From NCBI RefSeq assembly GCF_011764425.1, contig NZ_BLPF01000001.1, positions 372,001 to 436,000 of the forward strand: a stretch of 64,000 nucleotides of DNA, written 5' to 3'. How positions within the stretch are numbered: the first letter of the stretch is position 1; every line of letters begins with the position of its first letter. Origin of the DNA: Phytohabitans houttuyneae (GTDB lineage Bacteria; Actinomycetota; Actinomycetes; Mycobacteriales; Micromonosporaceae). Position numbers and translations under genes: made by a program. The notes under the pieces are model-generated. The model worked only from the letters and a program-made list of their open reading frames with translations, had not been told where the DNA came from and searched no databases. Shown piece by piece: positions 15,003-47,690 of the stretch.

Positions 15003-16241
15003 CTAGCGGCGTGCCTTCACCAGCGAGGCGTACACGACGACGTTGTCGGCGTAGCCGGTGGCACCGCCCACCCAGCGCCCGCCGCAGGTGATCAGGCGCA
15101 ACCCGGGGCGGCTGAAGTCGCCGAACACCTCATCCGCCGGCAGCTCGTCGCGGTCGTAGCGCTTGACCGAGTTCACCTCGAAGACCGCTACCGAACCGTC
15201 CGCGCGGTCGACCTCCACGCGGTTGCCCGGCCGCAGGCGGGACAGCTTGTGGAAGACCGACGGACCCGCGCCGTTGTCCACGTGGCCGACGATGACCGCG
15301 GGCCCGTACTCGCCGGGCGTGGGCCCCTTGTCGTACCAGCCGGCCTCGTCGAACCGCTCGCCGCGCGGCACGTCGATCGCGCCGCCCGTGGTGTTGCCGA
15401 CGCCGTGCACCGGCGCGTCGATCCGGACCGACCTCGCCCGGATACTCACCGGCAGGCTGCGCGCCAGCACCGGAAAGTCGCGCGGCGCGGGCCAGAAGCG
15501 GGCGGCCGGCCCGTCGGGAAGCACGTCGACGCCGGTGAGCCGCTCGAACGCGAAGCCGGTCACGGTCAGCAGCATCACCGCGATGATCAGCGACATCGCC
15601 AGCCGTATCCCCCAGTCCGGCCCGCCCACCCGCCACGCCGCACGCCGGAGCCGGCCACTGCGCCGGCGGACGAAGTCGCGCGTCCGGTCCGGTGGCCGCC
15701 GTGGCGCGCGCCGGTCGGCGTACCGGGGCGGTGCCGGCACGGTCGCCGCTCGCGCGGGTGCCCGTGGCGGTGCGTCCGCAGCGGCGGGTCGCGACCGGTC
15801 GGTGCCGGGCCGCTGCGGCTCCTCGACGCCCGCCGCCTGCTGACGGGCGGCGATGGCGGCACGGGACACCGGCGACGCCTGGCGGCGCACGGCGACGGCC
15901 GCGCGTTCCGGGCCCGGCGGTGCGGCTTCTAGCGCCCGGCGCGCCGCACCGCCCGGCGCGGGACCGCCCGCCGGCGGCTCGCCCTTCGCCGCGCGAGCAC
16001 GCGGCCGCTCCGGTGGCACGTCCTTCGCGAGAGGGCGCGGCCGCTCCTGTGGCACGTCCTTCGCGGGAGCGCGCGGCCGCTCCGGTGGCGCGTCCTTCGA
16101 GGGACCGCGTGGCCCCTTGGGCCGGTGACGTCCCGGCGGTGAGGAGGCCACGCTCGCGCGGGCGACCTCGCGGGCGATGCCCACCGCCGCGGCCGCCACC
16201 GCCTCGGCGCCCGGCCAGCGCCGGTCCTGGCTTGCGGCCAT
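15003..16241 (-). CDS. Class F-like actinobacterial sortase with repetitive N-terminus
   Basis: 412 residues. A long Pro/Arg/Ala-rich cytoplasmic N-terminus (to about 230) holds three 12-residue repeats (KDVPPERPR type). One membrane helix (LAMSLIIAVMLLTVTGFAF) leads to the extracytoplasmic sortase barrel. Catalytic residues are visible: His320 in VGHVDN, Cys386 in LITCGG and Arg389 just after. The barrel region is typical for class E/F enzymes, but the N-terminal arm is unusually long. Sortases cleave a sorting signal and attach proteins to the wall or each other. It is 11 nt after the membrane-anchored protein at 16253, a likely partner. Confidence 0.88.
   Translation of the reverse strand: MAASQDRRWPGAEAVAAAAVGIAREVARASVASSPPGRHRPKGPRGPSKDAPPERPRAPAKDVPQERPRPLAKDVPPERPRARAAKGEPPAGGPAPGGAARRALEAAPPGPERAAVAVRRQASPVSRAAIAARQQAAGVEEPQRPGTDRSRPAAADAPPRAPARAATVPAPPRYADRRAPRRPPDRTRDFVRRRSGRLRRAAWRVGGPDWGIRLAMSLIIAVMLLTVTGFAFERLTGVDVLPDGPAARFWPAPRDFPVLARSLPVSIRARSVRIDAPVHGVGNTTGGAIDVPRGERFDEAGWYDKGPTPGEYGPAVIVGHVDNGAGPSVFHKLSRLRPGNRVEVDRADGSVAVFEVNSVKRYDRDELPADEVFGDFSRPGLRLITCGGRWVGGATGYADNVVVYASLVKARR
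15999..16106 (-). repeat. Three tandem 36-bp units inside the sortase gene
   Basis: Units at about 15999-16034, 16035-16070 and 16071-16106, sharing GCGCGGCCGCTCC and ACGTCCTTCG. They encode 12-residue repeats of the form (A/P)xxKD(V/A)PxERPR. The length is a multiple of three, so copy-number change keeps the frame. Confidence 0.85.
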
Positions 16242-23328: not shown

Positions 23329-23404
23329 GACGCCAAAGGGTAGACGTCGGATCGACGCGGGACTGACCCGATGGCGGACCGGCGGTGGCGGCGTCCAGGA
23401 CCCC

Positions 23405-23490
23405 AATTCGAAATCATCTGAGCTACCGCGACGCCCGCGGTGGTCCGGACCGTCGCTCCCGCGGCCTCACCCTCCGCGGTCGCCCAGGTC
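23405..23490 (-). repeat. Dispersed intergenic repeat, core copy R2
   Basis: Reverse-strand match to the R1 core: GGTCCGGACC, then CCGCGGCCTCACCCTCCGCGG. It lacks the long hairpin and the GGTAGCC/GGCTACC stem. The rest of 23329-23564 shows no gene. Confidence 0.85.
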
Positions 23491-23564
23491 AACCCATGAA
23501 CTACGGGCGGACCCGCGTACTCCCGCCTCGCCCGCGGACGCGCGCATCCCGAGCCCGCGAGGTT

Positions 23565-24373: not shown

Positions 24374-25429
24374 TCAGGCGGACTCGCGGAGGACCAGCTC
24401 GGTGGGGAGGAGGCGGGACGAGGCGGGTTCGCGGCGGATGAGGCGCAGGAGGACGTCGACCATGTCGGCGGCGACGCGTTCCAGTGGCTGGCGGATCGTG
24501 GTCAGCGGCGGGTCGGTCTCGCGGGCGATGCGGGAGTCGTCGAAGCCGCCCACCGCGACGTCGTCCGGCACCCGGCGGCCGGCGCGGCGCAGCTCGGCGA
24601 GGGCGCCGGCGGCGAGCAGGTCGGACGCGGCGAACACGGCGTCGATGTCCGGGCTCTCCGACAGCAGCTCGCGCATCGCGGCCGCGCCGGCGGCGAAGCT
24701 GTAGTCGGAGGTGTGCACGACGAGCCGCTTCGTCGCCCGGCGGCCGAGCACGTCCCGGTACCCCTGGAGCCGCTCCGGACCACCGACCACCTGCGGGCAG
24801 GCGATCATGCCGATCCGCTTGCGGCCCTGCGCCACGAGGTGGCGGGTCATCTGCCGGGCACCCTCGGTGTCCTCGGCCGCGACGTACGGGATGGTGGCCT
24901 CCGGGCCGCCCGGCTTGCCGCAGGCCACCGCGGGCACGACGCCGCTGGCCAGGTCGGCGATCAGCGGGTCGCCGGAGTGCGCGGAGATCAGCAGCACCCC
25001 GTCGACGTGGCCGCCGCGCACGTACCGCAGGACGCGGTCGCGCTCGGCGTCGCTGGACTCCAGCATCAGGATGAGGCTGATGTCGTGCTCGGCGAGCGCC
25101 TGGGTGCAGCAGCGCAGCAGCACGCTGAAGTTGGGGTCCTCGAAGAGGCGCTCCTGCGGCTCCGACAGCACGAACGCGACCGCGTTGGACTGCTTGGTGA
25201 CCAGGCTGCGGGCGCTCTGGTTCACCGTGTACCCCGTGGTGCGCACCGCCCGCTCGACCGCCTTGAGCGCGGCCGGGCTCACGTACCGTGCGCCGTTGAG
25301 CACCCGGGAGACCGTGCCCCGGGAGACCCCGGCGACCTCCGCCACGTCGTCGATCGTCGGGCCGCGCCGCATGGCGCGCCGGGCCGCGCCGCGCGACTTG
25401 GGGTGTGGCTGGGCCGTCTCGCTACTCAT
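24374..25429 (-). CDS. LacI-family transcriptional repressor
   Basis: 351 residues. The N-terminal HTH and hinge read TIDDVAEVAGVSRGTVSRVLNGARYVSPAALKAVERAV, with a sugar-binding-protein-like effector domain (PQVVGGPERLQGYRDVL, FAASDLLAAGALAELRRAGRRVPDDVAVGGFDDS) after it. ATG 25429 lies inside the end of the GH1 gene (8-nt overlap), making it the last gene of the sugar operon and probably autoregulated. The TGTGAGCG-type palindromes upstream of the operon, the VOC-SDR pair and lacZ are its likely operators. Confidence 0.93.
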   Translation of the reverse strand: MSSETAQPHPKSRGAARRAMRRGPTIDDVAEVAGVSRGTVSRVLNGARYVSPAALKAVERAVRTTGYTVNQSARSLVTKQSNAVAFVLSEPQERLFEDPNFSVLLRCCTQALAEHDISLILMLESSDAERDRVLRYVRGGHVDGVLLISAHSGDPLIADLASGVVPAVACGKPGGPEATIPYVAAEDTEGARQMTRHLVAQGRKRIGMIACPQVVGGPERLQGYRDVLGRRATKRLVVHTSDYSFAAGAAAMRELLSESPDIDAVFAASDLLAAGALAELRRAGRRVPDDVAVGGFDDSRIARETDPPLTTIRQPLERVAADMVDVLLRLIRREPASSRLLPTELVLRESA

Positions 25430-26732
25430 CGGCCTCAGTTTTCCACGCGGCCTCCTGCCGCCGTTGTGGAACCGCGCCGGTGCGGGCCACCTGTCCGTAC
25501 CAATGGGCACTCGTCTTCGGCCGGCGGGTCTGGTCGGCATGGTCGACATGGACGATGCCGAACCGCTTGGCGAAGCCCTCGGCCCACTCGAAGTTGTCCA
25601 GCAGCGTCCAGAGGAAGTAGCCACGCACGTCGGCGCCGTCCTGGATCGCCTCGTGCAGGGCGAGCAGGTGGCTGTGCAGGTACGCCACGCGCAGCGGGTC
25701 GTCGACCCACCCGTCCGGGCCGACCTCGTCGTCGAACGCGGCGCCGTTCTCTGTGATGTAGAGCGGCGGCAGGTCCGGGTACGTGGCGCGGAGGCCGAGC
25801 AGCAGGTCGCGCAGGCCGGACGGGACGACGGGCCAGCCCACGGCAGTCACCGGCAGCTCGGGCGGCACCCGCGGGACGTAGAGCGGCCGGTAGTAGTTGA
25901 CGCCGAGGTAGTCGATCGGCGCGCTGATCAGGTCGAGGTCGCCGTCGTGCACGACGTCGTCGCCGAGCCGGGTCCGCCCGCGCATGATCGGCTCCAGGAA
26001 CATGCCGTGGTTGTCGTAGTCGTGCGCCTCGGCCGCGGCCGCGTCGGCCGGGGTGAGCGGCACCACCGGGCTCAGGTCGAGCGTGACGCCGACCTCGCCG
26101 CTGCCGCTGAGCACCGACATCCCCAGCCCGTGCGCGAGCAGCAGGTGGTGAGCGGCCCGGTCGCGCTGCACCCGGTCCCGGATGCCGGGCGCGTGGATGC
26201 CGTCGCCGTAGCCGGCGTGGCTGGACACCTTCGGCTCGTTGAGCGTGGCCCAGTGGTCGACCACGTCGCCGAGCGCGTCCCGCACGATCCCCGCGTAGTC
26301 GGCGAACCGGTACGCGGTGTCCCGCGCCGGCCAGCCGCCCCGGTCCTGCAGCGCCTGGGGCAGGTCCCAGTGGTACAGCGTCACGTACGGGACGATGCCC
26401 CGCTCACGCAGCCCGTCCACGAGCCGGCGGTAGTGGTCGAGGCCCTTCTGGTTGGCCGGGCCGGTGCCGTCCGGCTGGACGCGGGGCCACGCGATGGAGA
26501 AGCGGTACGCGCCGAGCCCCAGCGACGCCATCAGCGCCACGTCCTCGGGCCACCGGTGGTAGTGGTCGCAGGCGACGTCGCCGGTGTCGCCGCCGGCGAT
26601 CGCGCCCGGCACGCGGCAGAACGTGTCCCAGATCGAAGGTCCGCGCCCGTCCTCGCCGACCGCGCCCTCCACCTGGTAGGCGGCGGTCGCCGTGCCCCAC
26701 ACGAACCCCGCCGGGAACCGGACGCCGGTCAT
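25422..26732 (-). CDS. GH1 beta-glycosidase
   Basis: 436 residues, no signal peptide, so intracellular. It opens FPAGFVWGTATAAYQVEGAV, the GH1 start. The acid/base is Glu166 (WATLNEPK) and the nucleophile Glu328 (YITENGA). GH1 enzymes cleave beta-glucosides or beta-galactosides. The link with a sugar importer and lacZ suggests beta-linked oligosaccharides taken up whole. Its ATG overlaps the permease stop (ATGA), and its end overlaps the LacI start. Confidence 0.95.
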   Translation of the reverse strand: MTGVRFPAGFVWGTATAAYQVEGAVGEDGRGPSIWDTFCRVPGAIAGGDTGDVACDHYHRWPEDVALMASLGLGAYRFSIAWPRVQPDGTGPANQKGLDHYRRLVDGLRERGIVPYVTLYHWDLPQALQDRGGWPARDTAYRFADYAGIVRDALGDVVDHWATLNEPKVSSHAGYGDGIHAPGIRDRVQRDRAAHHLLLAHGLGMSVLSGSGEVGVTLDLSPVVPLTPADAAAAEAHDYDNHGMFLEPIMRGRTRLGDDVVHDGDLDLISAPIDYLGVNYYRPLYVPRVPPELPVTAVGWPVVPSGLRDLLLGLRATYPDLPPLYITENGAAFDDEVGPDGWVDDPLRVAYLHSHLLALHEAIQDGADVRGYFLWTLLDNFEWAEGFAKRFGIVHVDHADQTRRPKTSAHWYGQVARTGAVPQRRQEAAWKTEADE

Positions 26733-27625
26733 CCCTTGACTCCCCCACTCACCAGGTCGAGCCGCCAGTACCGCTGCAGGAACAGGAACAGCGCGACGAG
26801 CGGCAGCACGGACAGGAAGACACCCATGACGACCAGGGAGTACAGGGCGGGCTGGCTGGCACCCTGGTTGAGCATCGTGAACAGGCCCACGGTCATCGGG
26901 AAGCGGCCGTCGTCGGAGATCATGATGTACGGCAGCAGGAAGTTGTTCCAGATCGCGACGAACTGCAGCAGCAGCAGCGTCACCATGCCCGGGATCATCG
27001 GCGGCAGCCCGACCTTCCAGGCCAGCCGGTACTCGCCCGCGCCGTCGATCCGCCCGGCCTCCAGCATGTCGTCGGAGACGACCGAGGCGGCGTAGATCCG
27101 GGACAGGTAGATGCCGTACGGGCTGATGATGCTCGGCAGCAGCACCGACCAGTACGAGTTGACCAGGTCGAGCTCGGACATCAGCAGGTACTGCGGCACG
27201 GCGAGCGTGATCTGCGGTACCAGCACGCCGGCGAGGATCGTCATGAAGATCAGCTCGCGGCCGACGAAGTCGTACTTGGCCAGCGCGTACCCGGCGAGCG
27301 TGGAGACCGCGACCGACAGCACCGAGCCGACGCCCGCGTACAGCAGGCTGTTGAGGGCCCACTTGAGGAACACGCCGTCGCGGAAGTCGAGCAGGTGCGT
27401 GACGTTGTACTGGAACCCGCCCTGGAAGCTCGGCCAGAACGAGAACGTGCTGAACAGCTCGCTCGGGCCCTTCGTGGCGGCGATCGCGACCCAGACCACG
27501 GGCGCGAGGCAGTACACGGCGCCGAGCAGCAGCAGCGCGGTCGGTACCCACCGCGTGCGCGGCTTTTCCGGGCGCGGGACCGGCCGGGTCCGCGCGGGCG
27601 CCGGTCGCTCGGTGAGGACGCTCAT
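26729..27625 (-). CDS. MalG-type sugar ABC permease
   Basis: 298 residues, six predicted membrane helices. The docking loop EAGRIDGAGEYRLAWKVGLPPMIPG is the EAA motif of carbohydrate (CUT1) permeases, and FLQRYWRLDLVSGGVKG is the usual MalG C-terminus. It pairs with the MalF-type permease upstream. No ATPase is encoded here; as in many actinomycetes, a shared MsiK-like ATPase encoded elsewhere probably drives transport (inference). Its ATG overlaps the stop of the 84-nt repeat micro-ORF. Confidence 0.93.
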   Translation of the reverse strand: MSVLTERPAPARTRPVPRPEKPRTRWVPTALLLLGAVYCLAPVVWVAIAATKGPSELFSTFSFWPSFQGGFQYNVTHLLDFRDGVFLKWALNSLLYAGVGSVLSVAVSTLAGYALAKYDFVGRELIFMTILAGVLVPQITLAVPQYLLMSELDLVNSYWSVLLPSIISPYGIYLSRIYAASVVSDDMLEAGRIDGAGEYRLAWKVGLPPMIPGMVTLLLLQFVAIWNNFLLPYIMISDDGRFPMTVGLFTMLNQGASQPALYSLVVMGVFLSVLPLVALFLFLQRYWRLDLVSGGVKG

Positions 27626-27705
27626 GCCCGTCCTCGCTTCGCTGCGGGCGGGCACGAGGCTCCACGAGGGCTGTGCCTGATGATTCGCTCGCTGCGCTCG
27701 CTCAT
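27622..27705 (-). repeat. Coupled micro-ORF repeat S1 between the two sugar permeases
   Basis: An 84-nt cassette fills the gap between the MalF-type stop and MalG-type start. Its ATG overlaps the upstream stop (ATGA) and its TGA overlaps the downstream ATG. It encodes 27 residues, MSERSERIIRHS then PPAAKRGRA at the end. The same layout and length, with near-identical ends, occurs at 37488-37571 in an unrelated operon. The right end supplies AGCGAGGAC as ribosome-binding site for the next gene. Whether the peptide is made is unknown. Confidence 0.85.
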
Positions 27706-28637
27706 CGGTCCCTCCCGAAGGCCCGCCGCTGCAACACCGTGAGCACCGCGACCGACACGGCGAGCGTGCCGAGCGCGAGCACCACCGACGCGGCCGCGGC
27801 GCTGTAGAGGTCCGCGTTGACGAACGCGTCCCGGTAGATCGTCATGAGCGGCACCCAGGTCTGCGAGACGGTGTCGGTGAGCGGCTGGAGCGTCGCCGGC
27901 TCGGTGTAGACCTGGAGCGTGGAGATCATCGCGAAGATGGCGGTCATGATGACGGCCGGCATGATCAGCGGCACCTTCACGCGCAGCGCGATCTGCACCT
28001 CGTTTGCGCCGTCGATGCGGGCCGCGTCGTACATCTCCTGCGGCACCCCGCGCAGCGCGGTGAACAGCACGATCATGTTGAACCCGACGCCGCCCCACAC
28101 GCCGATGTTGGCGACCGAGAAGAGCACCGAGCCGGGCGCGAGGAAGTCCGGCGCCGGGAGCCCCACCGCCTCGAACACGTCCCGGATCGGGCTCACGTTG
28201 GGCAGGTAGAGGAAGCCCCACAGCAGGGAGGCGATCACGCCGGGCACCGCGTACGGCAGGAAGATGCCGATCCGGGAGAACGCGCCGAAGCGCACCCGCG
28301 GCGTGTCCAGCAGCAGCGCGAAGAGCAGGGCGAGGCCGAGCATGGTGGGCACGACGATCAGGCCGTACAGCAGCATGCGCAGCAGGCCGTCGACGTACGC
28401 CGAGTCGGTGAGCACGCTCGCGTAGTTGTCGAGGCCGACGAACGTCTCCTTGCGGATGCCCAGCCCGCCGCCGGTGACCCGGGCCGCGCGCAGGCTGAGG
28501 TACACCGTGTACCCGATCGGGACCAGCAGGAAGAGCACGAGCAGGACGATGGCCGGGGCCAACAGCACGTACGGGGTCGGGCCGCCGCGCCGGCTGGGCC
28601 GGCGACGGCGGCGGACCGCGGTGGCGGCGGATACCAT
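27702..28637 (-). CDS. MalF-type sugar ABC permease
   Basis: 311 residues with about six helices (YVLLAPAIVLLVLFLLVPIGYTVYLSL at the start). The EAA loop reads YDAARIDGANEVQIALRVKVPLIMP. Second gene of the operon, separated from the binding protein by the S3 repeat and from its MalG partner by S1. ATG 28637. Confidence 0.93.
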   Translation of the reverse strand: MVSAATAVRRRRRPSRRGGPTPYVLLAPAIVLLVLFLLVPIGYTVYLSLRAARVTGGGLGIRKETFVGLDNYASVLTDSAYVDGLLRMLLYGLIVVPTMLGLALLFALLLDTPRVRFGAFSRIGIFLPYAVPGVIASLLWGFLYLPNVSPIRDVFEAVGLPAPDFLAPGSVLFSVANIGVWGGVGFNMIVLFTALRGVPQEMYDAARIDGANEVQIALRVKVPLIMPAVIMTAIFAMISTLQVYTEPATLQPLTDTVSQTWVPLMTIYRDAFVNADLYSAAAASVVLALGTLAVSVAVLTVLQRRAFGRDR

Positions 28638-28639
28638 GC

Positions 28640-28711
28640 TTACCTCGCTCCGCCGCTCGGCGCTCGTCCACCATCGTGGTCGAGGTCCGTAGCCTCCCGG
28701 CTCCCGCTCAT
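28640..28711 (-). repeat. Junction micro-ORF repeat S3
   Basis: Between the binding protein and the MalF-type gene. An ATG overlapping the upstream stop (TGATG) opens a 23-residue ORF, MSGSREATDLDHDGG then APSGGAR, ending in TAA 2 nt before the next ATG. It resembles S1 and S2 in placement and in its AGCGGAGCGAGG end, but is a divergent version. Confidence 0.6.
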
Positions 28712-30045
28712 CACGCCTCCTTGACCTCGAAGCCCTGCTTCTTGAGGTCGGCGACGGACGCGGCCTGGATGGCGTCGACGGCGGCGGCGAAGTCGGACTT
28801 GTCCTGGATCGCCTTGGCGAAGATGTCGTTGTACTGGCTGTACGTCACATTGACGTTCGGCGCCCAGTTGAAGCCGCGCGCGGTCTTGGCGATCTCGGCG
28901 GCATCGGTGAAGAACGTGGGCTGGTTGGGCATCATCGCCGGCGCCTTGTTGAGCTGCGGGCTGGACTGTCCCTTGGACGCGGCCGGGTAGATGCCGCCCT
29001 CGGAGATGAGCGCGTCGAGCGCCTCCTGGTCGGTGTTGAGCCACCTGACGAACTTCTCCGCCTGCGCCCGCTGCGACGACTTGCTGGAGATGGCGGTGGC
29101 GGAGCCACCCCAGTAGCCGCTGGCCGGCGCGGCGGCGTCCCACTGCGGCATCGGCACCATGCGCCACTTGCCCTTGGTGCTCGGCGCGACGCCTTCCAGC
29201 ACGCCGGCGCCCCAGATCGCACTGGGCCAGGCCAGCAGCGTGCCGTCGGTCATCGCCTTGTTCCACTCAGGGGTGTACATCGGCTTGCCGGAGAGGACGT
29301 CGGCGTTGACAAGCTCGCCCCAGAAGGAGGCGACCTTCTTCGTCGGCTCGTCATTGATGCGCACGGTCCACGTACCGTTGTCGTTGGTCCACCAGTTGGC
29401 GCCGGCCTGCTCGGCCAGCCCCGCGAACCAGCCCGGGTCGCCGGAGGAGAAGGTGGCCAGGTACCGCTTGCTGTCCTTCTGCCGCACCTGCCGCGCCACG
29501 CCGGCGAACTCGTCCCACGTCTTCGGCACCGTGAGGCCGAGCTGCTGGAAGAGGTCTTCGCGGTAGTACAGCATCATCGGGCCGACGTCCTGCGGTATCC
29601 CGTACGTCTTGCCGCCGAACGAGGTCAGCGCCCAGGTCCCCGCGGTGAAGTCGCCCTTGATGCCGTCGGCCAGGGACGTGAGGTCGGCGGCGACGCCGTT
29701 GGTGATGAGCACCGGAAGCGCCTGGTACTCGGCGTGGATCAGGTCGGGTGCGTTGCCCGCGCGGTGCGCGGTCAGCGTCTTGGTGATCAGCTCTTCACCC
29801 TGGGCCTGGTTGCTCACCGTGACCTTCTGGGTGGGGTTCTTCGCGTTCCAGATGTCGACGACCTTCTGGATGTTGGTGGTCCAGGTCCAGAACGTCAGGT
29901 TGGCCGGGGCGTCGGGGTCGCCCGCGGTCTGTGCCGGCTCCTCGTCGTCACCGCTGCACGCGGCGAGGAAGGCCGGCATCGTGGCGGCCGCGCCGATGGT
30001 GGCGATGCCCTTGAGGAAGCCGCGCCGTTGGATCCGCTGAGTCAT
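28711..30045 (-). CDS. Sugar ABC transporter substrate-binding lipoprotein
   Basis: 444 residues. The signal combines a Tat motif (QRRGFLKGIATIG) with a lipobox (PAFLAACSG), so it is probably exported folded and lipidated. The body is a family 1 carbohydrate-binding fold (NLTFWTWTTNIQKVVDIWNAKNP, YGIPQDVGPMMLYYREDLF). It delivers oligosaccharide to the two permeases that follow. First gene of the LacI-controlled operon; ATG 30045, with a LacI-type operator 44 bp upstream. Confidence 0.93.
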   Translation of the reverse strand: MTQRIQRRGFLKGIATIGAAATMPAFLAACSGDDEEPAQTAGDPDAPANLTFWTWTTNIQKVVDIWNAKNPTQKVTVSNQAQGEELITKTLTAHRAGNAPDLIHAEYQALPVLITNGVAADLTSLADGIKGDFTAGTWALTSFGGKTYGIPQDVGPMMLYYREDLFQQLGLTVPKTWDEFAGVARQVRQKDSKRYLATFSSGDPGWFAGLAEQAGANWWTNDNGTWTVRINDEPTKKVASFWGELVNADVLSGKPMYTPEWNKAMTDGTLLAWPSAIWGAGVLEGVAPSTKGKWRMVPMPQWDAAAPASGYWGGSATAISSKSSQRAQAEKFVRWLNTDQEALDALISEGGIYPAASKGQSSPQLNKAPAMMPNQPTFFTDAAEIAKTARGFNWAPNVNVTYSQYNDIFAKAIQDKSDFAAAVDAIQAASVADLKKQGFEVKEA

Positions 30046-30088
30046 GGGGGTGCCCTCCTGAGTTCACTCGAAGGGGTAGCAGTCTCTC

Positions 30089-30131
30089 TGTGAGCGTTCA
30101 CAGAATCGGCGCGTCGCCGAGGCTGTGTCAA
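30089..30131 (-). promoter_or_regulatory. LacI-type operator O1 and promoter of the sugar operon
   Basis: TGTGAGCGTTCACA (30089-30102) is a near-perfect palindrome. On the minus strand TTGACA (30131-30126) is a consensus -35 and GATTCT (30107-30102) a weak -10 after 18 bp. The operator therefore covers the start of transcription. Two related sites lie at 30193 and 34706. Confidence 0.75.
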
Positions 30132-30192
30132 GGCTTCGTTGCGGATTTGTTTCCGCTGTCAATCTGCGCTCAGCGGTTGACTCTGGTGTGCC

Positions 30193-30206
30193 TGTGAGCG
30201 GTCACG
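30193..30206 (+). promoter_or_regulatory. LacI-type operator O2 before the VOC-SDR pair
   Basis: TGTGAGCGGTCACG, 15 bp before the GTG at 30221. It has the same TGTGAGCG half-site as O1 and O3 and faces the divergent sugar operon. Confidence 0.6.
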
Positions 30207-30220
30207 GTAGGGTGCCGGTC

Positions 30221-30916
30221 GTGACGACACGTTCCGCTGGGCTGCGGCAGGTGCGGCTCGGTTCCCGCGACCTCGACCGATCCGCGGCCTTCTATCGCGA
30301 CCTGCTCGGCTTCGACGAGGTGCCCGCGGCCGGCCCGCACGCGCGGTGCTTCGCGGCCGGCGAGGTGCGCGTCCTGGTCACCGAGGTCGAGCCGGGCGCC
30401 GACCTCGGCGGCTGGGTCGACGACGACCTGCAGGGCGGTGTCCGGCACTTCGGCATGAAGGTCGGCGACATCGACGCCCGCGTCCGCGACCTCGCGGCGG
30501 CCGGGGTCACCGTGCTCTCGCCCCCGGCCGACGTGCTCGGCGACGTGCGGATCGCGTTCTTCCTCGACCCGGACGGCGCCCGGCTGGAGTTCGTCCAGGG
30601 CAACCTTTCCTACCAGCACGTGTTCGCGCCGGATCTGGCCGCCGCCGAGGCCGCGACGAGGGCGGCGCCGGGCGAGCGGCCGCGCTTCGACCACGTGGCG
30701 ATCACGGTCGAGGACCTGCCGGCGGCGCTGCGCGAGTTCGACTACGAGGTGATCGGGGAGATCCGCCACCACGACGACGCGCGCGGCTTCCTCATGACCT
30801 ACCTGCGGGCCGGCCCGGCGGTGCTCGAGGTGTTCAGCTTCGACGTGCCGGTGCGCCCCCGGCCGCTCACGATCGAGGGCGTGCTCGGCTTCCAAGGATT
30901 CGAGGTCGACCGATGA
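30221..30916 (+). CDS. VOC-superfamily protein (glyoxalase/dioxygenase fold)
   Basis: 231 residues from GTG 30221, made of two VOC modules. The first (LRQVRLGSRDLDRSAAFYRDLLGFDEV to FFLDPDGARLEFVQG) and second (FDHVAITVEDLPAALREF to FSFDV) are both recognisable. A His and a Glu in the first (VRHFGMKV, LEF) could bind metal. The family includes glyoxalases, dioxygenases and epimerases. It is coupled to an SDR (ATGA) and carries a LacI-type operator, so it may act on the imported sugar or a product, but no reaction can be named. Confidence 0.82.
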   Translation: MTTRSAGLRQVRLGSRDLDRSAAFYRDLLGFDEVPAAGPHARCFAAGEVRVLVTEVEPGADLGGWVDDDLQGGVRHFGMKVGDIDARVRDLAAAGVTVLSPPADVLGDVRIAFFLDPDGARLEFVQGNLSYQHVFAPDLAAAEAATRAAPGERPRFDHVAITVEDLPAALREFDYEVIGEIRHHDDARGFLMTYLRAGPAVLEVFSFDVPVRPRPLTIEGVLGFQGFEVDR

Positions 30917-31787
30917 GCGGGACCCTGGCGAGCAGGTGCCTGGTGACCGGGTCGTCGGACGGCATCGGCGCGAAGGTCGCCGAGGTGCTGGAAGGCATGG
31001 GCCACGACGTGGTCCGGCACGCCCGCGACGAGGCGAAGGCGGCGCGGCTGCGCGAGGCCGGCGCGGGCGAGGTGGTGGTCGGCGACCTCGCATCACTCGC
31101 CTCCACCCGCGACATGGCGGCGGCGCTGCGGGCGGGCGCCCCGTTCGACGTGGTTGTGCACAACGCCGGCTGGCTGCCGCCGGAAGGCCCCCGGCCGGTG
31201 ACCGCAGACGGGCTGGAGCGCACCTTCCAGGTCAACGCGCTCTCGGCGTACCTGCTCACCGCCCTGCTCCCGCTGCCGTCCCGGCTCGTCTACGTCAGCT
31301 CCGACTCGATCGTCCGCGGCCGGATCGACCTCGACGACCTGCAGCACGCGGCGGCGTGGACCGCCGACAGCGCGTACGCCGACTCGAAGCTCGCGATGAC
31401 CGCGATCGCGTTCGCCGTCGCCCGCCGCTACCCGGCCCTGCGCGTCAACGCCGTGCATCCCGGCTGGATCCGCACCAAGATGAGCGGCTTCCCGGCCCAG
31501 GGGCCGGCAAGCTCCGGCCCGAGGAGCGCAGCGACGAGGGCGGAGCGCGCCGGCCTCCCGGGGCCGCCAGCGAGCGAAGCGAGCGCGAACAAACCAGCCC
31601 CCTCGACGTGGCCGCCGGCGCCGACACGCCCGTGTGGCTGTCCACATCGGACGAGCCGGCGACCGGCCAGTTCTTCCACGACCGCCGGGTGGTGCGCCTC
31701 AACGAGCAGGCGTACGACCCGGAGGTACAGGACGCGCTGGTGGAGCACTGCGCCCGGCTCACCGGGGCGGCGCTCCCTCCAGCGTGA
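30913..31787 (+). CDS. SDR-family oxidoreductase with in-frame repeat insert (frameshifted)
   Basis: About 291 residues after correcting one base. The Rossmann start VTGSSDGIGAKVAEVL, VVHNAGWLP, catalytic Ser in LVYVSSDS and AYADSKLAM (YxxxK) are all intact. The frame breaks in GGGG at 31500-31503; one added G lets the reading frame run through a GAGCG-rich insert (31504-31592, reading EERSDEGGA, then ASERSERE) into the normal end (VAAGADTPVWLSTSDEP, FFHDRRVV). The end region identifies the protein-modification-tolerant C-terminus of the family. Coupled to the VOC gene. Substrate unknown. Confidence 0.8.
31504..31592 (+). repeat. GAGCG-rich repeat insert S5 inside the SDR gene
   Basis: Contains GCTCCG (31511) paired with CGGAGC (31541), GAGGAGCGCAGCGACGAG, and AGCGAGCGAAGCGAGCG. 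It reads SERSERE in the sense frame, as in the S1 and S2 micro-ORFs. It lies between motifs that are adjacent in ordinary SDR proteins. Confidence 0.65.
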
Positions 31788-31792
31788 CGAGG

Positions 31793-34724
<2,932 letters not shown>

Positions 34725-34760
34725 CTAGCCTGCACTGCTTCCCCGCCGTTATCGTGAACC

Positions 34761-35522
34761 ATGCGCCGCTGGACCCTGGTCGGGGCGGCCGCGGTGGTGG
34801 CGCTCCTGCTGCTCGCGGTCGCGCTGGTCCGATGGGGCCCGGGTGGCGGTTCGCCCGAGGCCGAGCCGACCCCGTCGCCCAAGCCGACCGCCGTGGAGGA
34901 GCTGAGCGCCGCCGAGGTGTACCAGACGGTCGCCCCGTCGATCGTCATCGTCGAGCGGCTCGCCGCCGGTGACCGGGTCGAAGGCACCGGCACGGGCGTG
35001 GTGGCCAGCGACACCGGCGTGATCCTGACCGCGCTGCACGTGGTCAAGGGCGGCAGCGCGGTGCGGGTCACGTTCGCCGACGGCACGCGCTCGGCCGCGA
35101 CCGTCGAGGCGAGCGACCCGGAAAATGACATCGCCGCGCTCTCAGTGGCCAGCCTCCCGACCGTGCTGGTGCCCGCCACGATCGGCAACTCCGGCCGTCT
35201 CGCGGTCGGCGACACGGTCGTCGCCGTCGGCAACCAGCTCGGCATGACCAGCAGCGCGACCTCGGGCGTGGTCTCGGGCCTGGACCGGGCCGCGTCCGGC
35301 AACGACGGCACGCGGCTGGCCGGCCTCATCCAGTTCGACGCCGCGGTCAACCCGGGCAGCTCGGGCGGCCCGCTGGTCAACACCCGCGGCGAGACGGTGG
35401 GCATCGTCGTCGCCCTGGCCAACCCGACCAGCGCCGGCACGTTCATCGGCATCGGCTTCGCGGTGCCGATCGGCACCGCGCTGGGCGGCGGCCCGGGCAG
35501 CGAAGACGGACCACAGCGATGA
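34761..35522 (+). CDS. Membrane-anchored HtrA/DegP-like serine protease
   Basis: 253 residues. An N-terminal membrane helix (LVGAAAVVALLLLAVALVRW) and a Pro-rich linker lead to a trypsin-like domain with His (ILTALHVVKGG), Asp (PENDIAALSV) and Ser (NPGSSGGPLV), all in HtrA context. No PDZ domain follows, so it is a short version that ends after the protease. It would degrade or process proteins outside the membrane. 23 nt before moxR on the same strand, so it may share that operon. Confidence 0.9.
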   Translation: MRRWTLVGAAAVVALLLLAVALVRWGPGGGSPEAEPTPSPKPTAVEELSAAEVYQTVAPSIVIVERLAAGDRVEGTGTGVVASDTGVILTALHVVKGGSAVRVTFADGTRSAATVEASDPENDIAALSVASLPTVLVPATIGNSGRLAVGDTVVAVGNQLGMTSSATSGVVSGLDRAASGNDGTRLAGLIQFDAAVNPGSSGGPLVNTRGETVGIVVALANPTSAGTFIGIGFAVPIGTALGGGPGSEDGPQR

Positions 35523-35545
35523 CGAAACGACGATAGGACGCCTGG

Positions 35546-36523
35546 ATGGACACACCGGTGGAGCAGGTCCTCTACGAGGTCAAGAAGACCATCGTCGGCC
35601 AGGACATCCTGCTCGAACGGTTACTGGTGGCGATGCTCGCCCGCGGCCACATCCTCGTCGAGGGCGTGCCCGGCCTTGCCAAGACGCTCGCCGTCAAGGC
35701 GCTCGCCGGCGCGATCGGCGGGCAGTTCCACCGGATCCAGTTCACGCCCGACCTCGTGCCCGCCGACATCGTCGGCACCCGGGTCTACCACCAGCCGACC
35801 GGCGAGTTCCAGGTCTCGCTCGGGCCGGTATTCACCAACCTGCTGCTCGCCGACGAGATCAACCGGGCGCCGGCCAAGGTGCAGAGCGCGCTGCTGGAGG
35901 TCATGCAGGAGCAGCAGGTCACGATCGGGCGGGAGACGCACGAGGTGCCGCGCCCGTTCCTGGTCATGGCCACGCAAAACCCGATCGAGTCCGAGGGCAC
36001 CTATCCGCTGCCCGAGGCGCAGGTCGACCGGTTCATGATGAAGGTCGTGGTGGGGTACCCCAGCGCCACCGAGGAGTTCGTGATCGTCGAGCGGGCCATC
36101 GCGGCGCCGCCGGCCACCCAGGCGGTCGCCGACCCCGCGCGGCTCATCGCCATGCAAGCCAAGGTCGAGCAGGTGTACGTGGACCCGGCGCTGATCGAGT
36201 ACTCGGTCCGGCTCGCCGGCGCCACCCGCCGCCCCGCGGAGGTCGGCCTCGACGACCTGACGCGGTACGTGAGCTTCGGCGCCAGCCCCCGCGCCTCCAT
36301 CAACCTGGTGCTGGCCGCCCGCGCGCTCGCGTTCGTGCGGGGACGCGACTACGTGGTGCCGGCCGACCTCACCGACCTCGCGCTCGACGTGCTGCGGCAC
36401 CGGCTCGTTCTGTCGTACGAGGCACTCGCCGACGACGTCACGCCCGACGCGATCCTCACCCGGGTGCTGGCCACGCTGCCGGTGCCGGACGCGCCCTCGC
36501 GAGAAAGCGCGGCCGTCCGGTGA
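35546..36523 (+). CDS. MoxR-family AAA ATPase
   Basis: 325 residues. Walker A GVPGLAKT, Walker B LLLADEINRAP, sensor 1 MATQNPIESEGTYPLPEAQ and the family's C-terminal lid are intact. MoxR ATPases act as chaperones that remodel or activate partner proteins, typically with DUF58 and VWA proteins encoded beside them, as here. ATG 35546 with AGGACG upstream; GTGA overlap with DUF58. Confidence 0.95.
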   Translation: MDTPVEQVLYEVKKTIVGQDILLERLLVAMLARGHILVEGVPGLAKTLAVKALAGAIGGQFHRIQFTPDLVPADIVGTRVYHQPTGEFQVSLGPVFTNLLLADEINRAPAKVQSALLEVMQEQQVTIGRETHEVPRPFLVMATQNPIESEGTYPLPEAQVDRFMMKVVVGYPSATEEFVIVERAIAAPPATQAVADPARLIAMQAKVEQVYVDPALIEYSVRLAGATRRPAEVGLDDLTRYVSFGASPRASINLVLAARALAFVRGRDYVVPADLTDLALDVLRHRLVLSYEALADDVTPDAILTRVLATLPVPDAPSRESAAVR

Positions 36524-37491
36524 CCACCGCGCCCGACCGCCTGCTGCGCCGCCTGGAGTGGCAGGTCGTGCGCCGGCTCGACGGGCGGCTGCAGGGCGCC
36601 TACCGCACGGTGTTCCGCGGCACCGGCATCGACTTCGCCGACCTGCGCGGCTACACGCCGGAAGACGACGTGCGGCACATCGACTGGAACGTGACCGCCC
36701 GCCTCGACGAGCCGTACGTGCGGCAGTACACCGAGGACCGCGAGCTGACCGCCTGGCTGGTGCTGGACCGCTCGGCCTCCATGCGCTTCGGCACCGCGTC
36801 CGGGCGGGCAGGCTCCGTTCCGACGAGTCCGGAGCGCGCGGGCCGGCGGAAGCGACCGGCGAGCGCGGAGGGCGGGGACGCCGAGGGCGGCAAGGCGTCG
36901 GTGGTGACGGAGCTGGCGGTGTGCCTGGCGCGGCTGTTCACGCAGGGCGGCAACAGGGTCGGCGCGATCCTCTACGACAACCAGGTGCACCGGGTCGTCC
37001 CGGCCCGCACCGGGCGCAACCACGTGCTGCACCTGACACACGAGCTGACCAGGGACGGGCCGGCCCGCGCCGACCGCCGCCCCACCGACCTCGCCGCGAT
37101 GCTGCACCTGGCCGCCTCGACCGCGCGGCGGCGGGGGCTGGTGTTCGTGGTCTCCGACTTCATCGGCGACCTCGACTGGGAGCCGGCGCTGACCCGGCTG
37201 GCGATGCGGCACGAGGTGGTGGCCATCCGGGTCGTCGACCCGGCGGAGCTCGACCTGCCCGACCTGGGGCTGGTGCTTGTCGAGGACGCGGAGACCGGCG
37301 AGCAGCTGCTGGCCGACACCAGCGACCCGCTCTTCCGGCGGCGGCTGCGGGCCGAGGTGGACGCGCGCGAGTTCGCGGTCACCGGCGCGATCCGGCGGGC
37401 GGGGGCGGCCGCACACCGGCTCGGCACCGACCAGGACCTGGTGACCGCGCTGGTCGAGATGGCGCAGCGCTCCAAGCGGAGGCGAGCGTGA
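36520..37491 (+). CDS. DUF58 protein with in-frame repeat insert
   Basis: 323 residues from GTG 36520. The family motif GTGIDFADLRGYTPEDDVRHIDWNVTAR and the degenerate VWA fold (WLVLDRSASMRFGT) are present. An extra stretch of about 27 residues (GSVPTSPERAGRRKRPASAEGGDAEGG) then interrupts the usual FGT-x-KxxVVTELAVCLARL transition. The insert carries GCTCCG/CGGAGC and GACGAG like the SDR insert S5. The protein is thought to work with MoxR and the VWA proteins at the membrane. Its stop overlaps the GTG of the S2 micro-ORF. Confidence 0.9.
   Translation: MTTAPDRLLRRLEWQVVRRLDGRLQGAYRTVFRGTGIDFADLRGYTPEDDVRHIDWNVTARLDEPYVRQYTEDRELTAWLVLDRSASMRFGTASGRAGSVPTSPERAGRRKRPASAEGGDAEGGKASVVTELAVCLARLFTQGGNRVGAILYDNQVHRVVPARTGRNHVLHLTHELTRDGPARADRRPTDLAAMLHLAASTARRRGLVFVVSDFIGDLDWEPALTRLAMRHEVVAIRVVDPAELDLPDLGLVLVEDAETGEQLLADTSDPLFRRRLRAEVDAREFAVTGAIRRAGAAAHRLGTDQDLVTALVEMAQRSKRRRA
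36803..36891 (+). repeat. GAGCG-rich in-frame insert S6 inside the DUF58 gene
   Basis: GCTCCG (36812-36817) pairs with CGGAGC (36830-36835), with GACGAG between and CGGAGCGCGC after, matching the order seen in S5. The length keeps the frame. It codes for a basic, disorder-prone stretch. Confidence 0.55.
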
Positions 37492-37571
37492 GCGAGCGCA
37501 GCGAGCGAACCATCGGGCCCAGCGCGTCTTGTGGCTCATGGCCGCCCGCAGCGAAGCGAGGACGGTCATGA
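37488..37571 (+). repeat. Coupled micro-ORF repeat S2 between DUF58 and VWA genes
   Basis: An 84-nt cassette whose GTG overlaps the DUF58 stop (GTGA) and whose TGA overlaps the VWA start (ATGA). It encodes 27 residues, MSERSERTIGPS then PPAAKRGRS. The first 21 and last 31 nt of the stop-to-start interval are almost identical to S1, while the middle differs. It brings its own AGCGAGGAC ribosome-binding site for the VWA gene. Confidence 0.85.
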
Positions 37572-38542
37572 GCTTCCGGTACCCGCTGTTGCTGATCGTC
37601 GCGCTGGCGGTCGGGGTGGGGCTGTTCGTCTCGTACCACCTCTTGCAACGCCGCAGGGCGACGGCGCTGGCGGCCGCCGGACTGCAGCCCGCACGTCCGC
37701 GCGGTGGGCGCCTGCGGCGGCACCTGCCGCCGCTGCTGATGCTCGCCGCGCTGGTCCTCCTCTTCCTCGGCGTCGCGCGTCCACAAGCGACGGTGCCGGT
37801 GCCGAGGGCCTCGGGCACGGTGATCCTGGCCTTCGACATCTCCAACAGCATGGGCGCCAAGGACATCGCGCCGACCCGGCTGGGCGCCGCGCAGGCCGCG
37901 GCGGCCGCGTTCGTGCGCGAGCAGCCGGACACGGTGGACGTCGGGGTGGTCGCGTTCGGGCAGGGCGCGCTCACCACCCAGCTGCCCAGCGCCGACCACG
38001 ACAGCACGATCGCCGCCATCAACCGGCTCACGATCGCCGGCGGTACCTCGGTCGGGCAGGCGATCCTCGCCTCGCTCTCCGCGATCGTCGGGCAGCCGGT
38101 GAGCCTGCCCGACCCGGACGCCGCCGAGCCGCCGCCCGATTTGGGCTTCTGGCGTTCGGCGACGATCGTGCTGCTCTCCGACGGCGAGGACACCGGCGGG
38201 CCGGACGCGGTCGCCGCCGCGGAGCTCGCCGCCACGGCCGGCGTGCACATCGAGACGGTCGGGGTGGGCACGGTCGAGGGCGCGACGATCGAGGTCGACG
38301 GGTTCCAGATGGCGACCTCGCTGAACGAGGAGCTGCTCACCGCGGTCGCGGAGACCGCCTCGGGCTCCTACCATCGAGCACAGGACGCGCAATCCCTGAA
38401 CGACGTCTACGACTCGCTCGACCTGCGCATCACCACCGAGGACAAGCTCGTCGAGCTGACCGCGGCGGCCGTCGGGATCGCGCTGCTCCTGCTGACGATC
38501 GGCGGGCTGCTCATGATCACCTGGTTCGGACGGATCCTCTGA
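37568..38542 (+). CDS. VWA-domain membrane protein, BatA-like
   Basis: 324 residues. An N-terminal helix (LLIVALAVGVGLFVSYHL), a second helix (LLMLAALVLLFLGVARPQATVPVPR), a von Willebrand A domain with the MIDAS start LAFDISNSMGAKDIAPTRL (DxSxS), then TIVLLSDGEDTGG and a C-terminal helix. MoxR/DUF58/VWA clusters are linked to envelope stress and protein maturation. ATG 37568 is chosen at the end of the S2 repeat. TGATG overlap with the next gene. Confidence 0.9.
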   Translation: MSFRYPLLLIVALAVGVGLFVSYHLLQRRRATALAAAGLQPARPRGGRLRRHLPPLLMLAALVLLFLGVARPQATVPVPRASGTVILAFDISNSMGAKDIAPTRLGAAQAAAAAFVREQPDTVDVGVVAFGQGALTTQLPSADHDSTIAAINRLTIAGGTSVGQAILASLSAIVGQPVSLPDPDAAEPPPDLGFWRSATIVLLSDGEDTGGPDAVAAAELAATAGVHIETVGVGTVEGATIEVDGFQMATSLNEELLTAVAETASGSYHRAQDAQSLNDVYDSLDLRITTEDKLVELTAAAVGIALLLLTIGGLLMITWFGRIL

Positions 38543-39710
38543 TGTCGCTGACCTGGCCATGGGCCCTCGCCGCGCTGCTGGCCTTCCCCTGCTGCTGGGC
38601 TACCGGTGGTGGCTGCGCCGCCGGCGCCGCCGCGAGACGGTGCGGGTCTCCAGCGTCACGCTGATCCGCGCCGCGCTCCCCGGCCGCTCGCTGTGGCGGC
38701 GGCGCATCCCGATCTGGCTCTTCGCCGCCGGCCTCGTCGTGCTCGCCGGCGGCGCCACCCGCCCGCAGGCCTCGGTGCCGGTGCCGTCCAACTCCGCCTC
38801 GATCCTGCTCGCGATGGACGTCTCCGCCTCGATGTGCTCCACGGACGTCGAGCCCAACCGGCTGAGCGCGGCGCAGGAGGCGGCCCGCGCCTTCGTCAAG
38901 GACCTCGACGAGGGCACGCGGATCGGGCTTGTCACGTTTTCCGCGATCGCCGGGCTGCTGGTCGAGCCGACCAGCGACAAGGACGTGCTGCTGGCCGCGA
39001 TCGACGACCTCAAGACCTCCCGCGGCACCGCGATCGGCCAGGCCATCCTCACGTCGGTCGACGCGATCTCCGAGATCAACCCGGATGTGCCGCCGACCGG
39101 CGTCGAGGTGCCGCCGGCCACGGGCGACACCGGGGAGTACCAGCCGGACACGATCGTCGTGCTCACCGACGGCCGCAACACACAGGGCGTCGACCCGGTC
39201 ACCGCGGCCGCGGAGGCGGCGGCGCGGCGGCTGCGCGTGTACACGATCGGCTTCGGCAGCACCGAGCCCGCGCCCTCGATCTGCACGCGGGAGCAGATCA
39301 GCGGCGACGCGGCGTTCCGCGGCGACGCAAACGGGCCGTTCGGCGGCTTCGGCGGCCGCGGGCGGTACATGCAGGCCGACGAGGGGACGCTCACCGAGGT
39401 CGCCGAGCTGACCGGCGGCGAGTTCTACAAGGCCGAGGACACCGACGCGCTCACCGAGGTGCTGCTCGACCTGCCCTCCTCGATCGTGCTCCAGCGGGAA
39501 GACGTGGAGATCACCGCGTGGTTCGCGCTGGCCGGGGCGCTGCTCGTGCTCACCGGGCTGGGCCTGGCGCAGTGGTGGCAGCGCGCGGTCGTGGCGGTCC
39601 CGCCGGCGCCACCTGCCACCGCCGCGCCCGAGCCCTCGCCCTCTCCACCTCCCGCCGCGCCCCCGCCACCGCCGCCCGGCCGGGACGACACGGTGTGGAA
39701 GCGTGGATAA
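38542..39710 (+). CDS. VWA-domain membrane protein, BatA/BatB-like (frameshifted)
   Basis: About 389 residues after one correction. The start MSLTWPWALAALLAFP runs into a wrong frame at CCCC 38586-38589; one added C gives AFPLLLGYRWWLRRRRR. Two N-terminal helices, a MIDAS motif (LAMDVSASMCSTDVEPNRL), IVVLTDGRNTQG and a C-terminal helix with a Pro-rich tail follow. Its start overlaps the previous stop (TGATG) and its end overlaps the kptA start, so it is fully coupled. Confidence 0.88.
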
Positions 39711-40254
39711 CGCCGCCCTGGTGCGCCTGAGCCGGCGCGTGTCGTACCTGCTGCGCCATGACCCCGCCAGCGCCGGCCTCACGCTGGACCCGCAGGGCTG
39801 GGTGGGGGTCGACGACCTGCTCGCCGCGCTCGGCACGTCCGTGAGCCGGGCCGACCTGGACGCGGTGGTGGAGGGCAACGACAAGCGGCGGTACGCGATC
39901 CGCACCGGCCCCGGCGGCCGCGACGAGATCCGCGCGAGCCAGGGCCACACGGTGCCGGTCGACCTGGGGCTCGACCGGGTGCCGCCGCCACCGGTCCTCT
40001 ACCACGGCACGTCCGCGGCGGTGGTGCCGTCGATCCGCGCGCGCGGGCTGGAGCGGGGCGAGCGGCACCACGTGCACCTCTCGCCGGACGTACCGACCGC
40101 GCGGGCCGTGGGTGGCCGCCGGCGCGGTCCGGCGGCGGTGCTCGCCGTCGACGCGGCGGCGATGGCGGCGGCCGGGTTCGCCTTCTACCGCAGCGCCAAC
40201 GGCGTGTGGCTCACCGACCACGTCCCGCCGGAGTACCTGCGAGTGTCGCCGTGA
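39703..40254 (+). CDS. kptA: RNA 2'-phosphotransferase (Tpt1/KptA)
   Basis: 183 residues, full family length. Conserved blocks: LVRLSRRVSYLLRHDP, RYAIRT, IRASQGHT, VLYHGTS and RHHVHLSPD, with the expected Arg-His-Arg set. The enzyme moves an RNA 2'-phosphate to NAD, giving ADP-ribose 1'',2''-cyclic phosphate. Bacterial copies are widespread but their natural RNA is unclear. GTG 39703 lies inside the end of the VWA gene, so it is the last gene of the MoxR operon by position. Its 3' end overlaps the convergent HAD gene by 44 bp. Confidence 0.93.
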   Translation: MDNAALVRLSRRVSYLLRHDPASAGLTLDPQGWVGVDDLLAALGTSVSRADLDAVVEGNDKRRYAIRTGPGGRDEIRASQGHTVPVDLGLDRVPPPPVLYHGTSAAVVPSIRARGLERGERHHVHLSPDVPTARAVGGRRRGPAAVLAVDAAAMAAAGFAFYRSANGVWLTDHVPPEYLRVSP

Positions 40255-41698: not shown

Positions 41699-41850
41699 CG
41701 CACCTCAACCCCTCCTGGCCCGAACCCGGCGCGCGGCTGACGACGCTGGCCGGTCGAGCGCACCCAGGTCGAGCGCCGCTCGCCGCGTTCCTGGAAGGAA
41801 TCAGGGGTGCGTCGCTAACTTGCCAAGATCTGCCGGAGCGGGGAGCTGGC

Positions 41851-41960
41851 CGACCGCGGAGGGTGAGGCCGCGGGAGCAACGGTCCGGACCACCGCGGAC
41901 ATCGCGGCAGCTCGCATCTCATTCGGTTTTGACTTCCAGAAGGCTCTCCCCTGAACCTCG
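41851..41960 (+). repeat. Dispersed intergenic repeat, core copy R4
   Basis: Forward match to the R1 core (41853-41920): GAGGGTGAGGCCGCGGGAGC, GGTCCGGACC, then CATCGCGGCAGCTCG. The long hairpin is missing and the end diverges. It sits between two convergent genes. The rest of 41699-42010 holds no recognisable gene. Confidence 0.85.
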
Positions 41961-47403: not shown

Positions 47404-47690
47404 TGGTAGCCGTTTCAAAGGACCCAACCCGAACCAGATCCGGGCTACCGCGATGTCCGTGGTGGTCCGGACCGCTGCTCCCGCGGCCTCACCCTCCGTG
47501 GGCGCCCAACTCACCCCAACCCCCAGTCGCCGTTCAGATCGTGGTCGTTTGCTGCCCCTGGAGGGGCAGCAAACGACCACGATCTGCTCTATGGGCCTCT
47601 TGTTGACACCCGATCAAGGAGCCGGTGTGGCCCAGAACATCCGTGATCGCCCACATCGGCCCACGGCGGCGGCTCCGGCGGATCTGTAGA
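47404..47690 (-). repeat. Dispersed intergenic repeat, full copy R3
   Basis: Reverse-strand counterpart of R1. Reading on the minus strand: a CCTTGATCGG module, GCCCATAGAGC, the long hairpin (47535-47586), a G-rich stretch, the GGTCCGGACC core, and the end stem (GGTAGCC 47405-47411 with GGCTACC 47443-47449 on the plus strand). It lies after the aldo/keto reductase and before the luciferase-like gene. Confidence 0.87.
47535..47586. repeat. Perfect 24-bp stem hairpin inside R3
   Basis: CAGATCGTGGTCGTTTGCTG then CCCC (47535-47558), a TGGA loop, and the exact reverse complement (47563-47586). Compared with the R1 hairpin, CA has become TG on one arm, with matching changes on the other, so pairing is preserved. 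Confidence 0.95.

Follow-up and report, generated by a model that had tools for sequence, protein, structure and literature searches.

A probable small mobile element, similar to mycobacterial MIRUs, inserted at gene start codons in Phytohabitans houttuyneae and other actinomycetes

Results

Two copies of a coupled micro-ORF repeat

The window, i.e. the whole 64,000-nt stretch of the Phytohabitans houttuyneae genome that was analysed, contains two copies of a short repeat, one between two permease genes and the other between a DUF58 gene and a VWA-domain gene (Table 1). In both copies the first codon of a micro-ORF shares its TGA with the stop codon of the upstream gene. The earlier note had described an 84-nt repeat forming a 27-codon micro-ORF coupled at both ends, with exactly 79 nt between the T of the upstream stop and the A of the next start, and the sequences of both copies bear this out. 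Its statement that copy 2 matches copy 1 holds for length and coupling, but not for the start codon, which is GTG in copy 2 and ATG in copy 1. An Rfam gathering search of window positions 25000-40000 gave no match.

Table 1. Coordinates of the two element copies and adjoining genes in the window
Feature	Position	Strand	Description
Element copy 1	27622..27705	-	27-codon micro-ORF, from ATG at 27705 to the TGA within the downstream ATGA
Copy 1 left end, element bases 1-23	27683..27705	-	putative hairpin, GNA-looped and containing tandem G.A pairs; its foot is the start codon
Copy 1 right hairpin, element bases 48-85	27621..27658	-	spans the downstream start codon; from compensatory changes
Copy 1 GAGGA	27631..27635	-	ribosome-site-like by sequence; new ATG 5 nt further on
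BPD_transp_1 permease gene upstream of copy 1	27702..28637	-	stop overlaps the micro-ORF start
BPD_transp_1 permease gene downstream of copy 1	26729..27625	-	start (27625) lies within the ATGA of the element
Element copy 2	37488..37571	+	27-codon micro-ORF, GTG-initiated
Copy 2 left end, element bases 1-23	37488..37510	+	
Copy 2 right hairpin, element bases 48-85	37535..37572	+	
DUF58 gene upstream of copy 2	36520..37491	+	
VWA-domain gene downstream of copy 2	37568..38542	+	

A dispersed family in the host genome

At E<=0.001 the host genome (11.3 Mb, five contigs) contains at least 43 matches to copy 1, with 40 of 108 candidates scored, and the repeat is therefore not a product of chance. 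A covariance model built on 27 copies (R1) gave 58 matches in the same genome at E<=0.1, of which the weakest are doubtful. Thirty-six of the 43 matches parse automatically as a micro-ORF that closes within the following start codon, and in 27 of them the start-to-start distance is exactly 80 nt; for one of the 36 (C1:1260696) the upstream GTG given by the automatic parse is an artefact, which was corrected in the locus counts below. Among the seven unparsed matches, three (C4:605775, C1:875008 and C5:120898) proved to be coupled too when read by eye, two (C1:711935 and C1:712016) form a degenerate tandem, and in the last two (C1:3398621 and C4:1128645) coupling is not evident. Three head-to-tail units with a period of 80 nt and a shared ATGA are found at C1:4735943-4736189. 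In the degenerate tandem (L030, C1:711935-712101) decay has turned the internal RTGA joints into CGCGAG, and a single micro-ORF frame reads through both units. The earlier note had staked its reading on the repeat being neither unique to two places nor indifferent to the overlap elsewhere in the genome; 43 matches were found, and the overlap is preserved.

Insertion at native start codons

The genes behind 34 copies (the 36 coupled copies minus two internal tandem units) were compared with their orthologues in five congeners, namely G001 (Micromonospora sp. CPCC 205371), G002 (Phytohabitans suffuscus), G003 (P. flavus), G004 and G005 (P. maris). Two loci (C2:2292663 and C5:273743) yielded no orthologue, one (C3:1327640) yielded only filled orthologues, and at two (C4:478160 and C1:4694406) the empty sites have no recognised start, which leaves 29 loci. 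Filled and empty sites were called by motif, a decayed short copy (C4:909865 in G003) being counted as empty, and the 116 comparisons comprise 23 filled and 93 empty sites. A start was present within 12 nt in 88 of the empty sites, and in 84 of these 88 it is NTGA. Counted by locus, the empty sites are mostly NTGA at 28 of 29 loci, compared with 34 of 118 background starts, and RTGAGY is found in at least half of the empty sites at 18 of 29 loci, compared with 7 of 118 background starts, the latter being taken from a crude caller (long ORFs, high GC3 and a ribosome-site motif). The comparison with junctions of relatives lacking the element, which the earlier note had proposed, thus places the insertion point at the native gene start at these 29 loci, each of which has an element-free relative.

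At C4:134781, for instance, the empty sites read gagtc-GTGACGGCCTTC (G002) and GTGACGGGCTTC (G003), and the filled sites of the host genome and G005 read (g)a(g/a)tc-[GTGAGCGAGCG ... GGGC]-ATGAGCGA(C/G)TTC, a net gain of 80 nt exactly at the start. G002, G003 and G005 all lack copy 1 of the window at the orthologous start, and their empty sites read gggagggaccg-ATGACG (G003), -ATGACC (G005) and -GTGACC (G002); the site of copy 2 is empty in G003 and filled in G002 and G005.

At 23 of 29 loci the left start begins with the same base as the empty sites (with four ties and two disagreements), so that this base probably comes from the target. At six of the 29 loci AG opens codon 2 in the filled copy and in no empty site, and the right-hand RTGAG(C) seems, from the sequences, to be brought by the element. 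The left end retains the start codon and ribosome site of the target, which now open the micro-ORF, and the tail of the element provides a hairpin, GAGGA and a new RTGAG start, the TGA of which closes the micro-ORF. To judge from this arrangement, translation of the gene behind the element is probably still possible.

The proposal that the repeat lands on an overlapping stop/start and keeps translation coupled through a mini-peptide therefore stands as regards a dispersed repeat, a struck start codon and a coupled micro-ORF, but not as regards a site at junctions only. Several copies follow an ordinary ribosome site (e.g. ggaggaatc-ATG at C1:204238) and are thus not confined to operon stop/start overlaps; according to the locus counts, what the targets share is an RTGA(GY) start rather than an operon junction. 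Open upstream frames were considered as a sign of gene splitting or operon junctions and discarded as uninformative in GC-rich DNA; the frame closed by the left TGA is open for at least 100 codons in 77 of 117 copies, which is an upper bound.

The near-total restriction to starts could be the result of selection after insertion rather than of targeting. This bears on a spread via RNA, whereby the element would enter transcripts at start codons and be copied back into DNA: the examined copies are indeed sense-oriented at starts, as this route would explain, but selection could yield the same pattern, and we consider such a route quite unlikely. Recombination or gene conversion between RTGAGY sites, without a dedicated enzyme, would fit the direct RTGAGC at both ends and the preference for RTGAGY targets; it would, however, have to work with a very short homology (4-6 nt) and would leave the conserved hairpin ends unexplained, and is in our opinion very unlikely.

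Reading frame and peptide

When both ends were located by motif, the end-to-end spacing was 2 mod 3 in all 103 end pairs, including all 16 spacings other than 80 nt (53 to 77 nt). The probability of the latter result would be (1/3)^16 for independent copies, but some of the 16 are orthologous and hence not wholly independent. Size variants that keep the frame range from 53 to 92 nt. In this measurement the left motif nearest to 80 nt was chosen, and because of a 9-nt repeat within the left end, spacings of 71 and 80 are likely alternatives; in the set of copies selected by a pattern, the 2-mod-3 spacing is present by construction.

Mean entropies at codon positions 1, 2 and 3 are 0.41, 0.44 and 0.48. 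Since the codon positions vary equally, the peptide is under no visible selection, while frame and structure are kept. A functional micro-peptide (MSERSER...PPAAKRGR) could account for the frame being open in coupled copies, but this equal variation, together with right-half peptides that differ between families, makes it extremely improbable.

A putative left and a conserved right hairpin

A hairpin can be drawn for the left 23 nt, with a stem of alternating Watson-Crick and tandem G.A pairs and with a GNA loop at its tip; the scheme, with column counts on 32 diverse copies, is 1:23, 2:22, (3.21, 4.20), 5:19, 6:18, (7.17, 8.16), 9:15 and 10:14, with a loop of bases 11-13. RNAalifold, applied to 27 copies, predicts the pairs 5:19, 6:18, 9:15 and 10:14. 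Loop base 12 is the sole freely varying base (C 9, G 7, A 7, T 4) in a near-invariant stretch in which other bases nearby are likewise third codon positions, and in two other genera (L074 and L077) the loop is GNNA, one base longer, with a total that is still 80. Copy 1 as a whole does not fold with unusual stability (z -1.16 as RNA and -0.62 as DNA), and the proposed left hairpin is absent from the single-sequence optimum, which pairs the left end differently; it is thus a structure that we infer. In DNA, GNA and GNNA loops closed by two G-C pairs are described as extraordinarily stable, with a Tm of 78 C for GCGAAGC (cited section of PMC4686876).

Of 100 full-length copies, 91 have complementary bases at the first position of the left start and at base 23 (A with T in 73, G with C in 18); a one-base shift brings three others into agreement, and six are exceptions. 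Agreement is found in 29 of 32 copies of the diverse set, and other families again combine GTG with C (L327, L333, L334, L341, L364 and L365). The exceptions include A with C in several copies of the Nocardia-like genome G145, as well as L171 and L342. Within Phytohabitans the unrelated pair of bases 1 and 52 is nearly as correlated as 1:23, and a tree test on 96 of the 100 copies yielded one supported independent pair each for 1:23 and 52:81; with a single independent pair and a correlated control, this test carries no claim. The agreement is at most suggestive of a closing pair or of a base that reads the target. A pairing of the left ATGA with TCAT (bases 23-26), considered as well, was dropped, the covarying pair being 1 with 23.

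In the right hairpin, bases 48-57 pair with 76-85 and bases 59-60 with 73-74, and this pairing is kept by compensatory change. Changes on both sides were found in four pairs, one of them 1:23, and fill 23 cells compared with 7.5 on shuffling, a value that none of 500 shuffles attained. The pairs kept in this way include that of base 52, whose partner opens the new start codon (T:A 21, C:G 4, other 1), and GAGGA is located in the 3' side of the hairpin, five bases ahead of that codon. A GNA or GNNA mini-hairpin occupies the right tip in 28 of 31 non-Phytohabitans copies, where 7.9 are expected on shuffling; this count is independent of the pattern by which the copies were selected, whereas the count for the left mini-hairpin is partly conditioned by it.

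Taxonomic range

Matches at E<=0.001 number 1, 10, 20, 4 and 83 in the congeners G001 to G005, respectively, and at least one is present in 18 of 41 genomes, P. houttuyneae included. Class-wide, 26 of 394 genomes (own genome included, E<=1e-5) match; they represent seven families, Micromonosporaceae and six others. Phylum-wide, a broader model (R2) matches 5 of 396 genomes, again including the own genome; these counts are lower bounds, given the stricter filters applied. Among the copies read, the left end RTGAGCGAGCG-N-AGCGAGCGAAY is near-identical, and the sequence of the right hairpin varies from family to family. Tandem arrays are found in Actinopolymorpha alba, with a period of 80 as in P. 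houttuyneae. In L333 (G308) tandem 80-nt units have the same left end and a wholly different right half, with CCAGGAGG ahead of the new GTG.

A genus that is probably Mycobacterium contains 10 matches in 7 of 198 genomes (E<=0.001), among which the tuberculosis bacillus may or may not be included. These are four 65-nt coupled elements, one 35-nt coupled remnant, and five left-end fragments or uncoupled matches. In L347, L349 and L352 of this genus, lone left-end fragments are the first codons of genes, with MSERSERI- or MSEP-like beginnings; they are possibly fossils of the element.

A hairpin over the start codon and conserved coupling might also be expected of a domesticated control device, kept to regulate its genes. 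Sister species, however, differ in the presence of the element (the 93 empty comparisons among 116), copy number extends from 1 to 83 within one genus, and the genes behind it are of unrelated kinds where known (the annotated genes of the window), so that a control device appears unlikely.

Other repeats of the window

At the next junction of the operon of copy 1, a different repeat of similar design (28711-28635, minus strand) forms a 23-codon micro-ORF, MSGSREATDLDHDGGRAPSGGAR, whose TAA lies 2 nt before the ATG of the permease gene. The genome contains 32 matches to this repeat, part of them arranged in tandem at intervals of about 75 nt with TAGGCATG at the joints; according to match boundaries it is absent from G002 and G003. 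Within a coding frame at about 31489-31596 (plus strand; ORF 30346-31911, read by eye) lies a repeat of about 108 nt, with RVNAVHPGWIRTKMSG just ahead of it; it has 37 genome matches and, according to match boundaries, is missing in G002, G003 and G005. The frame used for the annotated protein at 30936-31787 is probably not that of the gene. By eye, GC-GNA-GC cores can be recognised in the element and in both of these repeats.

A dispersed repeat of about 90 nt occurs on both strands, at 2940-3039, 23403-23496, 41840-41929 and 47426-47524, and a 51-nt near-perfect palindrome (CAGATCGTGGTCGTT...) at 2877-2927 and 47535-47585 adjoins a 90-nt repeat copy in each case. A 36-nt tandem repeat is located at 15990-16117, with three overlapping register copies (84-100%).

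Discussion

We consider it probable that the repeat described in this study is a small non-autonomous mobile element of 80 nt that inserts at RTGA gene starts, preferably RTGAGY, the host gene staying expressed because ribosomes cross the micro-ORF. The old ribosome site and start codon would drive translation of the micro-ORF, and ribosomes on it would unfold the right hairpin before terminating at the TGA and reinitiating, with GAGGA in place, at the start codon that overlaps it. As the output of the host gene would be kept, the insertion would be tolerated and nearly harmless. With less assurance, we suggest that the element may move as a folded single strand, through an enzyme acting in trans that would recognise the mini-hairpin at either end, each having a start codon as its outer foot.

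As for the enzyme, no match to the IS200/REP-type Y1 transposase (PF01797) was obtained in any of the 12 genomes searched, including G005 with its 83 copies; the control with this profile matched in 5 of 14 known genomes, and a very divergent enzyme would escape it. This result weighs against mobilisation by an HUH Y1 transposase of the IS200/IS605 or RAYT type, which would read the RTGA foot through an internal guide base, as has been proposed for REPs. Such a mobiliser would suit a base 1 that probably derives from the target and goes with base 23, and hairpin ends 20-25 nt long that have a foot of 4 nt, which resemble IS200/IS605 ends and REPs as these are portrayed in the cited part of PMC6006769, but on balance it is improbable. 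The likeness to these systems, taken from the same part of PMC6006769, lies in hairpin ends with a short conserved foot and in high copy number. The element differs from them in the lack of a PF01797 match, in its foot being a start codon, in the closed ORF inside it and in its location at starts; the RTGA foot is conserved, and the hairpin that it belongs to is putative.

Rickettsia palindromic elements (RPEs) insert in frame within genes and are translated inside proteins. The element likewise preserves reading frames, but it sits at starts, not within genes, and has its own stop, thus making a closed ORF ahead of the gene; the comparison with RPEs drawn in the earlier note is consequently weak. 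The repeat at 31489-31596 is the more RPE-like one of the window.

A much closer counterpart is found in the mycobacterial interspersed repetitive units (MIRUs; Supply et al. 1997, as cited in PMC12548453 and PMC2734929). In the passages available from these and other papers, MIRUs are described as mobile repeats that insert at start codons and bear an ORF coupled at a -4 nt spacing, a reading in terms of translational coupling having already been given (PMC12548453); as units of 40-100 bp at 41 places in one genome, species without a MIRU having only a few bp at the orthologous junction (PMC2734929); and as tandem units of 77 and 53 bp, those at the senX3-regX3 junction being found only in M. 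leprae and the tuberculosis complex (PMC4213456). In M. bovis the whole 5' UTR of one gene is reported to be a 77-nt MIRU (PMC4128351, in part).

The element of Phytohabitans is similarly located at start codons with its own ORF coupled at -4 nt (the ATGA overlap). Its 80-nt units fall within 40-100 bp, its 43 matches in the own genome correspond to tens of loci, and tandem arrays occur both at C1:4735943-4736189 and in Actinopolymorpha alba. As far as the cited passages go, it also resembles MIRUs in being absent at orthologous junctions of relatives and in its spacings, which are 2 mod 3 like the MIRU lengths of 77 and 53 bp. It differs in its hosts, which belong to Micromonosporaceae and six other families. 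On this analysis we regard the element as MIRU-like and not as a MIRU, a likening made from published descriptions. The earlier note knew of no description of such a repeat in actinomycetes; MIRUs are, however, described as doing the same (cited part of PMC12548453). The open-access literature searched yielded no description of such an element outside mycobacteria and none of a two-hairpin anatomy. The kind itself is therefore known; the host range, the empty sites and the two-hairpin anatomy are new as far as the literature was searched.

A broader view, which we put forward tentatively and regard as rather doubtful, is that of a widespread actinomycete class of single-strand-hairpin elements that have become specialists for start codons. 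The transposition ends would be two mini-hairpins of very high stability, with GNA/GNNA loops and tandem G.A pairs, a start codon would form the outer leg of each, and base 23 would pair with the first base (A or G) of the target start. MIRUs would then be one branch of this class, and the repeats at 28635-28711 and 31489-31596, which have the same GC-GNA-GC core, would use the same enzyme.

MIRUs serve in strain typing. The MIRU literature cited here states, in the parts consulted, no mechanism for their movement, and this mechanism becomes testable with a counterpart from soil actinomycetes that reaches high copy numbers (1 to 83 within a genus) and has both empty sites and conserved ends. 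The element can also mislead the annotation of start codons, giving N-termini that read MSERSER. Mobile DNA of this type can strike a gene where it is most sensitive and yet cause no obvious silencing.
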